Assembly (NCBI GenBank): GCA_026708055.1
Contig: JAPOVS010000017.1
Coordinates: 1 to 43,245 of the forward strand
Direction: 5' to 3'
Length of the DNA stretch: 43,245 nucleotides
From: a bacterium
GTDB lineage: Bacteria > Actinomycetota > Acidimicrobiia > Acidimicrobiales > CATQHL01
Part shown: positions 35,142 to 39,101 of the stretch, one piece after another
Numbering within the stretch: the first letter of the stretch is position 1
How the letters are laid out: every line of letters starts with the position of its first letter
Position numbers and translations under genes: made by a program
Notes under the pieces: generated by a model
The model's input: the letters and a program-made list of their open reading frames with translations, nothing else
Database searches by the model: none
What the model was told of the DNA's origin: nothing

Positions 35142-35153
35142 AGTGACGTCACT
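35142..35153. repeat. 12-bp perfect palindrome at the 3' end of the methyltransferase gene
   Basis: AGTGACGTCACT overlaps the methyltransferase stop codon in a 66-bp gap between convergent genes. A run of nine C (35100-35108) lies nearby. Its role is unknown; it could be a protein site or mark an island junction. Confidence 0.4.
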
Positions 35154-36318
35154 TGAGCATGTCGAGCACACTCTCAGCAATGGCTTGACCCAGCAGCGGC
35201 GGCACGGCATTACCAATCTGCTTCGCGATCTGAGTCCGTGTCCCAGAGAATGAGAAGTCGTCGTCGAACGACTGAAGCCTTGCCCCCTCGCGCAGGGTGA
35301 GCGCCCGGTCCTGGAAGGGATGAATGCACTTGTTGGAAGCGGGATGTACGAAGTTGACCGTCAGGGTAACAGCTGGCTCGTCGGGATCCAATCGCGAATA
35401 GCACGAGGAGAATCCCGACGAGATCAGGTGTTGCGGCACAGAGCTGATGTTCGAGCCAGCGTGTCGGATGATCTCTAGCATCCGCTTGGTGTGATCGGTT
35501 GCTACATGTAACTCAAGACGCGGGGCGCGTCGGCGGCGGGCTGCTTGATAGTCGTTCTGCGGTAGAAGTTCATACTCGTCGGCCGTCTGGCCGGCGCCCA
35601 CCGGGGGGAGGTCCCCAATCCCTTCCATGACGGTGAGCGCCTCTGGCAACTTGGGCTCGTCACACGCGAACAGGCCGAGTTGCTCGGTCGGCGTCGAAGG
35701 TTCGAGTCGTCGTGTCCGATCACGGATCCCGATCGTCCTGAATTCGCCGGTGTGGGTAGGGGAGGGAAACCGAGCGCGAACTCCGTGCTGCCCGCCGATC
35801 ATCACGAGGCGCTCCCTCTTCTGAGGAACGCCGAAGTGGGCGGCATTGACTATCCGCCAATCCGATGTATAGCCGAGCCCGCCGAAGCACTGCTGTATCT
35901 GTTCGATGGTGGCCCCCCGGTTGTGGGTCGCCAGACCCACGACGTTCTCCATCACGAACACCCGGGGCCTGAAATAGTTGACGTAGCCGGCGAATTCCTC
36001 GAAGAGCGAGTTGCGCGGGTCGTCCTCCGACGCAGACCGAAACGGCCGGATCGAGGAGAAGCCCTGGCACGGCGGCCCGCCTACGATGACATCGACCTCG
36101 CCGCGCCCCAACCCGGTGCGGCGGGAGACCTCCCCGAGCCGCACGTCGCGCACATCGGCCGCCAACGCGACGGCCTGCGAGTGATTGAGCCGGAAGGTCT
36201 CCACCGCAACCGGTAGCACGTCGATGCCGAACACGACGCCGAATGCGCCGGCGTTCTCGAACCCCTTCGAGAACCCGCCGGTTCCACAGAACAAGTCCAT
36301 CACCTTCATGCGCGCCAT
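35149..36318 (-). CDS. DNA (cytosine-5-)-methyltransferase
   Basis: This 389-aa type II C5 methyltransferase would protect host DNA from the divergent nuclease. Motif I VMDLFCGTGGFSKGF, motif IV VGGPPCQGFSS (catalytic Cys), motif VI VMENV, motif VIII PQKRERLVMIGG and motif X KQIGNAVPPLLG are all present. The variable target-recognition region between VIII and IX (about residues 190-310) should set the sequence recognised, which cannot be read off. I chose ATG 36318 (MARMKVMDLF) because AGGTGG lies about 8 nt upstream; ATG 36309 is the alternative. The gene is divergent from the HTH-nuclease fusion with 91 bp between. Confidence 0.93.
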   Translation of the reverse strand: MARMKVMDLFCGTGGFSKGFENAGAFGVVFGIDVLPVAVETFRLNHSQAVALAADVRDVRLGEVSRRTGLGRGEVDVIVGGPPCQGFSSIRPFRSASEDDPRNSLFEEFAGYVNYFRPRVFVMENVVGLATHNRGATIEQIQQCFGGLGYTSDWRIVNAAHFGVPQKRERLVMIGGQHGVRARFPSPTHTGEFRTIGIRDRTRRLEPSTPTEQLGLFACDEPKLPEALTVMEGIGDLPPVGAGQTADEYELLPQNDYQAARRRRAPRLELHVATDHTKRMLEIIRHAGSNISSVPQHLISSGFSSCYSRLDPDEPAVTLTVNFVHPASNKCIHPFQDRALTLREGARLQSFDDDFSFSGTRTQIAKQIGNAVPPLLGQAIAESVLDMLK

Positions 36319-36357
36319 CCGAGGCCACCTCCCTTCTGTAGGGGCGTATTGCCGGGG

Positions 36358-36390
36358 GAGACTATAGTCTCTGACTTGGGTCCTGCGCAA
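36358..36390 (-). promoter_or_regulatory. C-box-like palindrome overlapping a methyltransferase promoter
   Basis: GAGACTATAGTCTC (36358-36371) is a perfect 14-bp palindrome containing GACT-AT-AGTC. Controller proteins of type II restriction-modification systems bind GACTnnnAGTC boxes, so this is a one-base-shorter version. Reading the minus strand, TTGCGC (36390-36385) and TATAGT (36366-36361) make a promoter with an 18-nt spacer; the -10 lies inside the palindrome. The HTH domain of the divergent gene product is the obvious candidate to bind and repress here. Confidence 0.6.
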
Positions 36391-36409
36391 GCACCTACGA
36401 TCCTATGTC

Positions 36410-37312
36410 GTGGGTGAGACAGCACCCGGGGATCCTGCAGACGAGGCAGCGAGAACCCTCGCCCGCGCCGTGGGCGCAGTCGTCGCTCGTCTCCGACGCG
36501 AACGCGGGTGGTCGCTTGAAGACCTAGCGGACGAAGCGGGCAGGCACCGTACCTACGTGGGACTGATTGAGAGGGGCGAACGGCACCTGAGCGTCGCAAC
36601 AGCCTTTCGCATCTCACAAGCTCTCGGACTCTCCCTCTCAGAACTCATCGACCTCGCTGCGGCACAGGCGTCAGGCACCGTCGACCCGGTCCGCTTTCCC
36701 AGAAGGATCCCACCACCGAATGCCGCCCGTGGAGCCGAAGCGGTCAAGGCGAGCACCGGACTAACCGAGAGGTGGGTTCCCTCCGCCGTCGAAGCGACCT
36801 ACGAGACGCTAGATCGTATTGACGAGCAACTCGTCAATACCGGCTCAGAGCCTCTTGCCAAGGTCGTCGAACTAGCGAATCTATCAGCGATCGTCGGCAA
36901 CCTTATGCGATCAGCTCTGCAAGGACACTCTGACGGCGCCTATCGGAGCAACGCGCCTCACACCTTTCCAGATCTCGTTTCCGAGTCTGACCGGTTTCAA
37001 GACCTTGAAATCAAGATCGCCCTCGAAGGGAACATGCCCAAGGGTCATCTGCCAAAGCCAGGAGCGCACCTCATCTGCCGTTACGTGCTCGCCGAACGTG
37101 ACGCCACCTACTCCCGCGGAGACCGAGGCCATGTTGTGTGGATTTGGGAGGCTAGACTCGGAGAGTTGTCCAGACACGACTTCAACACATCCAACACTCC
37201 TAGCGACTCAGGCAAGACGGCAGTTGTAAAGGCTGACTCCCTCTACCGGCTCACTTGCGTCTATTACGACGAGCGTTTCCTTCCCCTAGCCAAACCTCGT
37301 TCAGGACACTAG
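36410..37312 (+). CDS. XRE-type HTH fused to a PD-(D/E)xK nuclease-like domain, probable restriction enzyme
   Basis: Residues 16-82 of this 300-aa protein are an XRE/Cro-type helix-turn-helix: VVARLRRERGWSLEDLADEA, then HRTYVGLIERGERHLSVATA, as in restriction-modification controller proteins. Residues about 115-300 look like a type II restriction enzyme: PHTFPDLV (Asp188), then 11 residues later LEIKIALEGN (Glu200, Lys202), a PD-x(n)-ExK active site, followed by KGHLPKPGAHLICRYVLA. The nuclease call rests on this motif and on the divergent C5 methyltransferase; I cannot name the specificity. The GTG at 36410 lacks a clear ribosome site, so a leaderless message is possible. Base composition is lower in GC than the catabolic genes. 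Confidence 0.75.
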   Translation: MGETAPGDPADEAARTLARAVGAVVARLRRERGWSLEDLADEAGRHRTYVGLIERGERHLSVATAFRISQALGLSLSELIDLAAAQASGTVDPVRFPRRIPPPNAARGAEAVKASTGLTERWVPSAVEATYETLDRIDEQLVNTGSEPLAKVVELANLSAIVGNLMRSALQGHSDGAYRSNAPHTFPDLVSESDRFQDLEIKIALEGNMPKGHLPKPGAHLICRYVLAERDATYSRGDRGHVVWIWEARLGELSRHDFNTSNTPSDSGKTAVVKADSLYRLTCVYYDERFLPLAKPRSGH

Positions 37313-37329: not shown

Positions 37330-39101
37330 ATGAGCGATGTTCAGGTTGCACTTGAGCAGCGTGAAGTTCGACAAGCATTTGAGAGCGTCGGAGATGGCCC
37401 GTGGACGACTCTCTATGAGTCCTGGGAGGGAAGGGACGGGTTCAGGCTGCTAGTGGTAGTGCTCGCTCCGAAGAAGCGGAGATCCGATATCCTCTTGGAC
37501 CACGTTCATCTCCCACCTCTTGACTTTGGCGCTCCAGGCTTCGTGGAGTCGTACAGGAGCGGCCGCAAACAACGGAAGTACCTGAGATTCGGCGGCGACG
37601 AGGGATATGAGCCCCTCGTGATCCTTCAAGACCACTACCCCGTGCGTCCTCGTATGCTGCCGCAGCTTAGCGAAGAGTTCCGGCTCTACCACAACCTGTG
37701 GGCCAGCTAGGAGGGAACGGAGTGCATCAAGGTCAACTCCGATGGCTCTGAAGAGATCGCCGCTAAGATTACTCCGGACTCCGCAAAGGTCCGGACGAAG
37801 TTCGTCCGGCAGTTTCAGGCAGGCAGACAACTGGATCAGTGCTGAGGCTTAGCTCAATGACTTAGAGGGTGCGCGGATAGGCTCTGAACAGGGGATTTGC
37901 TATTCGTCTGGCGAACCTGTTTGTGCTGGTGGCGAGCGGCGAAGCATGCCGGATCGGTGTCTCTGGGGCGGTGCTGATCACCTATCCGCGCACGCTCTTA
38001 CGTCGATGACCCCAGAGAAGTAGCCCAAATCGGTGAGATAGCCCCTCGCCTGGGCCGGAGCGACATGAGTCTCAGCATCTACGTGTCGACGGAGGCTCGG
38101 GGCAGCAAGATGCCTTCTTCAAGCCTGTACGGCAGGAAGGTGCTGAAGGCTCCCCCTCGGACCAAGGCTGGCATCTGGCCCTTCGATAAGCAAGAGAAGA
38201 GAATCTACCACGAGTTCATCATCGCCGAGAATTCTGACGGCGAGCCTGTTGAGCACACCTGTAACCCCGATCACCTTGCCAACAACTTCGGGGCAAACCC
38301 GGACGCGCCCCACTACCTGACGCCCGTCTATTTTCGCCGTGAGGTTCTTCAGCGCTATTACGAGTTCCCCGAGAAGTTCTCGATCGAAGCAAGCTACCTG
38401 TCCTGCGGCGGCCTCTGGGGCCTATCCATCGACAACGACCACCCCGACCATGTGATGGTCTTTCTGGGTGACCTCGGACGAGATCTTCCCGAGTCGGAAC
38501 GACCCTACTGGCGAACCTTCAACATAGCACCAATCGGCAGACCGAGCCGAACGGCGATCAGGCGGTCGCTCTTCGCTCTACCCACCGCTCCAGAAGCTCC
38601 CGACCTGAGATTCAAGTCGGCATATCGACTGTTCAAAACGGAATGGCAAAACAGTTTAGCTGGCCACTATTTCAAGAGCCCAAGCCCGACGACGCCCACG
38701 TTATTCAGCGGCTTCGCATCCCGCTCAACAGTAGTCAACCGGAATTCGAAGACCAAATCGTCAGCTTGACCAAGCTCATGGTCGATGCCCTGAACGAAAG
38801 GGAGATTCAGAAGCTGCTTCCCGACCGACAGCCGAACGAGAAGGGCATCAGCAAGCTGGAACGATGGATGCGCCAAGAGCAGTATCCTTTCGTTGAGCGC
38901 GACATTGCGTTCCTGAGACGACTTCAACGTCTCCGCAGCAAGCTCGCAGCGCACCGCAAGGGTGCCGACTACACCCAGGTACTTGCGGACGAGGATGTCA
39001 ATGCCGACCCCATCCAAGAAGTCGCCAACATGCTCTGCGACGCTGAACGCCTGCTGTATAGCCTGGCCTCTCACGCTAAAATTGACCTGAAAAAATACTG
39101 A
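37330..39101 (+). pseudogene. Decayed large gene of unknown function next to the R-M system
   Basis: The ATG at 37330 (MSDVQVALEQREVRQAFESV) opens 126 codons ending in TAG at 37708-37710. The same frame continues as convincing protein (ECIKVNSDGSEEIAAKI, VRTKFVRQFQAGRQL) to a TGA at 37843. After a MITE, coding resumes (YVDDPREVAQIGEIAPRLG, through MSLSIYVSTEARG at 38065, to RLFKTEWQN near 38650) in a frame one base off that of the first part. It then shifts again to the frame starting near 38643 (FSWPLFQEPKPDDAHVIQRL to the stop at 39101). Lesions: an amber codon, an apparent frameshift near 37820-37840, the MITE, and a frameshift at an AAAA run (38648-38651). Joined, it would be roughly 540-550 aa. 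I do not recognise the family. Confidence 0.75.
37865..37997. mobile_element. 133-bp MITE with 17-bp terminal inverted repeats
   Basis: The left end GAGGGTGCGCGGATAGG (37865-37881) is the inverse of the right end CCTATCCGCGCACGCTC (37981-37997) with one mismatch. TTA flanks both sides (37862-37864 and 37998-38000), a likely 3-bp target duplication as made by some IS5-group transposases. The 99-bp interior has no reading frame of note. The element sits inside the decayed gene and would rely on a transposase encoded elsewhere. Confidence 0.8.

Follow-up and report, generated by a model that had tools for sequence, protein, structure and literature searches.

A C protein-restriction endonuclease fusion with a single conserved C-box-type operator predicted to serve both divergent promoters of a Type II restriction-modification system

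Fusions of a controller (C) protein with a restriction endonuclease (REase) have been described for the PvuII type, in which CR.NsoJS138I and four others were reported and one member was found to have both activities (Liang and Blumenthal 2013, PMC3850674). In EcoRV, according to the account of Semenova 2005 in PMC6237814, a single C site of high affinity activates the promoter of c-res; it also overlaps the divergent methyltransferase (MTase) promoter and represses it. An earlier note on the DNA analysed here had proposed the fusion and a single C site for one or perhaps both promoters; both ideas were preceded by these systems (PMC3850674, PMC6237814). The PvuII-type C-REase fusions and the dual-use site of EcoRV were already known; new at the present locus are what appears to be another REase family, with no Pfam match, and its single operator (one detectable conserved site instead of two or three), together with relatives that keep the classical layout.

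The present locus was found to resemble the PvuII-type fusions in containing C at the N-terminus and the REase at the C-terminus of one polypeptide, with C-boxes upstream, whereas the PvuII-type fusions contain R.PvuII orthologues and classical candidate C-boxes and the present locus contains what appears to be another family, with a predicted NaeI-like fold, a C5 MTase and one 14-bp operator. EcoRV, as presented in PMC6237814, shares the single C site for activation and divergent MTase repression, which is predicted here from geometry, whereas its C protein is described there as separate and as repressing its own synthesis through a second site of low affinity; in the present system C and R form one protein, and a second site was undetectable in most loci. 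The operator OM of Esp1396I, which controls the MTase gene, has the core GAC-TATA-GTC in common with the present box and is bound by an HTH homologous to that of the fusion (PMC3758141, PMC4041747), whereas in Esp1396I the operators are three and separate, the C protein is not fused, and the C/R and MTase genes are convergent. The C protein of Kpn2I represses a strong MTase promoter overlapping a divergent promoter (PMC6237814), but the site it uses coincides with the -35 of the MTase and is located within the C gene, and R has its own promoter.

The window, that is, the whole stretch of 43,245 nucleotides which was analysed, was found to contain a C5-cytosine DNA methyltransferase of 389 aa on the minus strand (35149..36318, ATG at 36318), followed by the presence of a C-REase fusion (CR) of 300 aa on the plus strand (36410..37312) with a GTG start and one open frame. 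The genes were divergent, with a gap of 91 bp between the MTase start (36318) and the fusion start (36410). The MTase, which the earlier note had called a C5 enzyme, matched PF00145 at 2.1e-62 and PADLOC MTase_II at 7e-100, and a Shine-Dalgarno sequence rated as good (AAGGGAGGTGG) was found at 36335-36325 on the minus strand. With a C-like HTH linked to a REase and an MTase, and with a C-box-type palindrome upstream, the locus is probably a C-protein-controlled Type II restriction-modification (R-M) system whose C protein and restriction enzyme form one polypeptide.

The region 3′ of the CR gene was found to contain a directly following ORF of 126 aa (window 37330-37710) with a plausible Shine-Dalgarno sequence and no family match. 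Two further ORFs (38065-38769 and 38643-39101) overlapped in different frames and may be one frame-broken gene (window 38065-39101), again with no family match. An element of about 135 bp (window 37861-37998) with the terminal inverted repeats GTGCGCGGATAGG / CCTATCCGCGCAC adjoined the R-M system; one near-full copy at 89% and about 11 partial matches were found elsewhere in the genome, and by its appearance it may be a MITE, a small mobile element without coding capacity.

Relatives were collected by searching with the nuclease half of CR. They were found in a genome of the same class (52% identity), one Psychrobacter plasmid, one streptococcal phage, one viral contig and 64 loci in genomes of many phyla, one of which was the same-class genome again; many of the loci came from metagenome bins. 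Viral contigs gave 0 matches in a single-sequence scan and 1 match in an alignment-based search. No mention of the Psychrobacter plasmid by name was found in the literature searched.

The fusion consisted of one 300-aa ORF, and 39-40 fused relatives were aligned with it. Residues 20-80 (36467..36649, plus strand) were found to contain a C-protein-like HTH matching PF01381 (3.6e-13) and the PADLOC control protein (2.1e-14), in agreement with the earlier note, which had placed an HTH at the N-terminus of the nuclease; PADLOC Control_protein matched 39/39 fused members. The HTH was followed by the presence of a linker at about residues 85-118 (36662..36763, plus strand), which contained 25-47 residues in the relatives. 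Both the HTH and the nuclease folds were supported by the structure model (whole protein: mean pLDDT 89, pTM 0.74). The matches of the HTH in the PDB included C.BclI, C.AhdI and C.Esp1396I, and R47, T48, Y49 and R58 of CR aligned with R35, T36, Y37 and R46, the DNA-contacting residues of C.Esp1396I (PMC4041747).

The C-terminal half gave no convincing Pfam match, and the 39 aligned fused members matched almost only HTH families, with a few weak one-off matches. A PD-(D/E)xK site from PD 187-188 to EIK 200-202 (36968..37015, plus strand) was nevertheless recognised from invariance and model strands: P187, D188, E200 and K202 were invariant among the aligned fused members, as expected from the nuclease motif named in the earlier note, and the predicted fold, which that note had proposed as a check, placed PD and ExK on the adjacent core strands 189-191 and 199-205. 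Model residues 110-290 matched the NaeI endonuclease domain (PDB 1iaw) with Z 10.2, 152 aligned residues and rmsd 3.5 at 9% identity. The nuclease half appears tied to NaeI by fold only in this model, and at 9% identity cleavage specificity is not inferable from NaeI. R.PvuII was absent from the sequence and fold matches of CR, the fold lists being filled by the HTH half. A frame-broken relative of the nuclease, without the HTH, was found in Streptococcus phage phi-SsuHCJ31 (L011, 3423-4772); its tandem neighbours there are an ORF that bears the annotation R.SnaBI and a SinI-like MTase.

The gap was found to contain a perfect 14-bp palindrome, exactly as the earlier note had read it, with GAGACTATAGTCTC at 36358..36371. 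It was the sole match in the window allowing up to 3 mismatches, and GAGACWATWGTCTC occurred once in the 3.9-Mb genome. A perfect palindrome of at least 14 bp arose in 0.7% of simulated 91-bp sequences of the same make-up and nine were present in the whole window, so that the palindrome alone is weak evidence. A chance palindrome was ruled out by conservation across loci: GAC-N4-GTC was found in the gap of 41/41 loci in which this nuclease occurred together with a C-type HTH and a divergently oriented MTase, and the identical 14 bp in 26 of these 41. The 41 loci spanned Actinomycetota, Pseudomonadota, Thermodesulfobacteriota, Bacillota, Verrucomicrobiota, Acidobacteriota and Deinococcota, and the 40-60 bp flanking the box were 15-45% identical between distant loci. 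In 32 non-redundant loci the nucleotides GAC and GTC, the T in position 8 of the box and its last C were invariant; the outer G and C of the box and its AT-only centre were likewise conserved. In the comparison of homologues suggested by the earlier note, the box was present in every fused divergent relative, including a fused Micromonospora locus (L026), and in a single case (L045) a nuclease without the HTH was found with no box either. GACTATAGTC was not found in an R-M context in the literature searched; some key older papers and REBASE lay outside that search, and an earlier description is possible.

The specific C-box contacts of C.Esp1396I are GAC and GTC, and the optimal site contains a TATA spacer (PMC3758141). 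The core GAC-TATA-GTC of the box equals this optimal site, and the box is therefore classed as a C-box, a single operator standing at the position of the classical OL. The earlier proposal of a C-box-type operator was thereby upheld by the core, whereas its reading as GACT-nn-AGTC departing from a C-box was not, the half-sites being GAC and GTC around TATA. From the aligned contact residues and the core, CR itself would be the protein that binds the box. An RNA hairpin at the box was ruled out, since the box is located outside both predicted transcripts.

Outside the Acidimicrobiia, the box was found with asymmetric conserved flanks, CCGGTG-box-GTGGA, which are possibly remnants of a tandem C-box or outer C-protein contacts. 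In the Acidimicrobiia clade (L013, L014, L015, L023 and L024, the window itself not) the flanks were self-complementary though differing in sequence, with 4.3 of 8 pairs vs 2.2 across loci (permutation p 0.0001, kinship uncorrected); by their position these extended flanks do not form an mRNA hairpin.

The predicted -10 of the MTase promoter, TATAGT (36361..36366, minus strand), was located inside the box, with a start point probably near 36354, mainly on the evidence of the relatives. At least 5/6 of TTGACA was found 17-18 bp upstream of the in-box TATAGT in 15/24 non-redundant loci outside the Acidimicrobiia clade, and in several Verrucomicrobia the MTase ATG was found 5-8 bp past the box, as in a nearly leaderless message. 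The window contained a weak -35-like TTGCGC (3/6; 36385..36390, minus strand) with an 18-bp spacer, not conserved in its own clade, and a -35 with at least 5/6 of TTGACA was found in 0/8 non-redundant loci of that Acidimicrobiia clade. The overlap of the box with a minus-strand -10, as drawn in the earlier note, is thus carried by the outside loci, with little from the -35 of the window or its clade. The box is predicted to span about -16 to -3 of the MTase promoter; because it overlaps the -10, it should repress the MTase gene, and on this position the MTase repression put forward in the earlier note is predicted here as well.

On the plus strand, the box was followed directly by a weak -35-like TGACTT (36372..36377), a putative element read from the sequence, and by a predicted CR -10, TACGAT (36396..36401), beginning at the 25th base after the box; in the relatives, positions 2-5 beyond the box tend to read T.GA. 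A TANNNT hexamer began 25 plus or minus 1 nt past the box in 23/31 loci, as against at most 8 in 500 shuffles, and was missing at the expected place on the CR strand in 8/31 loci. At this -10 distance the box centre would be near -43.5, an activator position, and the box would span about -50 to -37 of the CR promoter. Lambda CI at OR2 stands at a similar position, as an activator contacting sigma. The earlier note had allowed that the protein represses "perhaps itself"; the position of the box relative to the CR promoter predicts self-activation instead. The predicted CR start near 36408 is located two bases before the GTG, so that the CR message would be almost leaderless, and leaderless messages are common among C genes (PMC4824078). 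By the positions of the -10 elements, the locus appears to contain the dual-use geometry of EcoRV, one site overlapping the MTase promoter and upstream of the CR promoter.

When a second operator (OR) was sought in the divergent loci, only L036 and L046 gave a site that surpassed the shuffles. The classical tandem C-box (OL + OR) and the second low-affinity self-repression site of the EcoRV type were both undetectable, these two loci apart. In L036 and L046 (Verrucomicrobia) the second box stands at a distance of 34-35 bp from the first one, where it covers the predicted CR -10, and is possibly a regained repressing site. Loci with the same nuclease family and a convergent MTase were found to contain a small separate C gene together with tandem boxes, such as ACTTATAGTCCGTAGACTTATAGTC, in L066, L069 and L070; tandem boxes were also found in L065, where C is fused, and in weaker form in L041, L048, L052 and L054. 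Some relatives of this nuclease family contained GAC-N5-GTC boxes. In the classical relatives a -10-like hexamer started 31-33 bp from the OL dyad, and in the divergent clade the -10 started 32 bp from the box dyad, so that the single box stands in the place of OL.

Many convergent relatives were found to contain an N-terminal HTH on the C5 MTase (clear in L041, L048, L057, L063 and L067, weak in L066), whereas in the divergent clade the MTase starts beside the box and is without an N-terminal HTH. On one reading, control moved from two regulators to one. In L041 and L048 the HTH-bearing MTase was found together with a separate C gene, and two regulators may run one R-M system there. In a tree made by a quick method with no bootstrap, the divergent fused state clustered and the cyanobacterial fusion L065 was placed next to the separate-C locus L066, from which the C-REase fusion probably arose more than once in this nuclease family. 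In L031, where the box reads GAGACCATAGTCTC, C and R are encoded by two genes that overlap; as an ancestral unfused state it was rejected, because the tree places it inside the fused clade, and its split more likely arose secondarily or reflects a frameshift in the assembly.

The sequences establish the fusion, the box with its conservation and the spacing of the promoter elements. The arrangement probably provides one operator at which a CR dimer represses the MTase and activates its own gene, leading from protection to restriction with positive feedback. On cell entry the MTase promoter would fire first and CR would be made slowly from a weak promoter. The CR dimer would then bind GAGACTATAGTCTC via its HTH and cover the MTase -10 (about -16 to -3), turning the MTase promoter off, and the same bound CR, which would occupy about -50 to -37 on the CR promoter behind it, could recruit RNA polymerase for its own gene. 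A single binding event would thereby turn protection into restriction, reinforced by positive feedback. CR binding, repression, activation and timing are here what we infer from the arrangement.

The same layout would also let CR only repress the MTase and rise passively as the overlapping, competing MTase promoter falls silent. The MTase -35 is located inside the CR promoter spacer, so the promoters overlap, and passive promoter release was described for C.Kpn2I and the HTH-bearing methyltransferases Ecl18kI and SsoII, with promoter competition documented in related systems (PMC6237814, PMC3874152, PMC12707154). The fixed distance from the box to the CR -10, matching the classical distance from OL to -10, is however needed by an activator and not by competition, and we consider passive release unlikely. 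The invariant core GAC-N4-GTC would further suit an R-M recognition site, GACNNNNGTC, in the MTase promoter, whose methylation controls that promoter, and MTase promoters that sense methylation are known (PMC6237814). This is very improbable: relatives of the same nuclease family contain GAC-N5-GTC boxes, the genome shows no avoidance of GACNNNNGTC (1287 sites vs 980 of the mirrored control), conservation extends past such a site to the outer G and C as well as to the AT-only centre, and the box tracks the HTH.

Equally improbable, in our estimate, is that a host regulator binds the box, or that a C domain made as a protein of its own does so, with the HTH of the fusion only targeting the nuclease to DNA. 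This would agree with L031, in which separate overlapping C and R genes accompany GAGACCATAGTCTC, and with a Met in the linker region of 17/40 members. The box, however, is found with the R-M system in one phylum after another, on a mobilizable plasmid and a viral contig too, and is present once in this genome; L031 lies inside the fused clade with a split that looks secondary or like an assembly frameshift, and a PvuII-type fusion gave full-length protein only on Western blots (PMC3850674).

In the preferred reading, with repression and activation by CR at one operator, the box would occupy the place of the activating OL of classical C-boxes, with the repressing partner OR undetectable in nearly all loci. 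With OR missing, classical theory would predict runaway CR, and in one classical system harm was reported once the repression site had been lost (PMC12707154). A more tentative extension, to which we give somewhat less than even weight, is a widespread lineage of self-controlling REases with one operator and no OR, the repressing site regarded as the safeguard of C-controlled restriction, in which the methylase is switched off and the nuclease on in one step and the level of CR is self-capped, e.g. by competing dimer interfaces.

Two sites, one for activation and one for repression, are required in classical C control, and it is reported that a system deprived of the repressing one does harm when it enters a new cell. 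In the present clade, spread over seven phyla, most loci show the activating site only, merged with the site that would repress the MTase, and the controller would be the REase itself. How control may have been rewired is illustrated by relatives that have the same nuclease but a separate C, tandem boxes and MTases bearing an HTH. The question of Liang and Blumenthal, whether both halves dimerise at once and whether this sets the delay from protection to attack, would become testable in a natural family.
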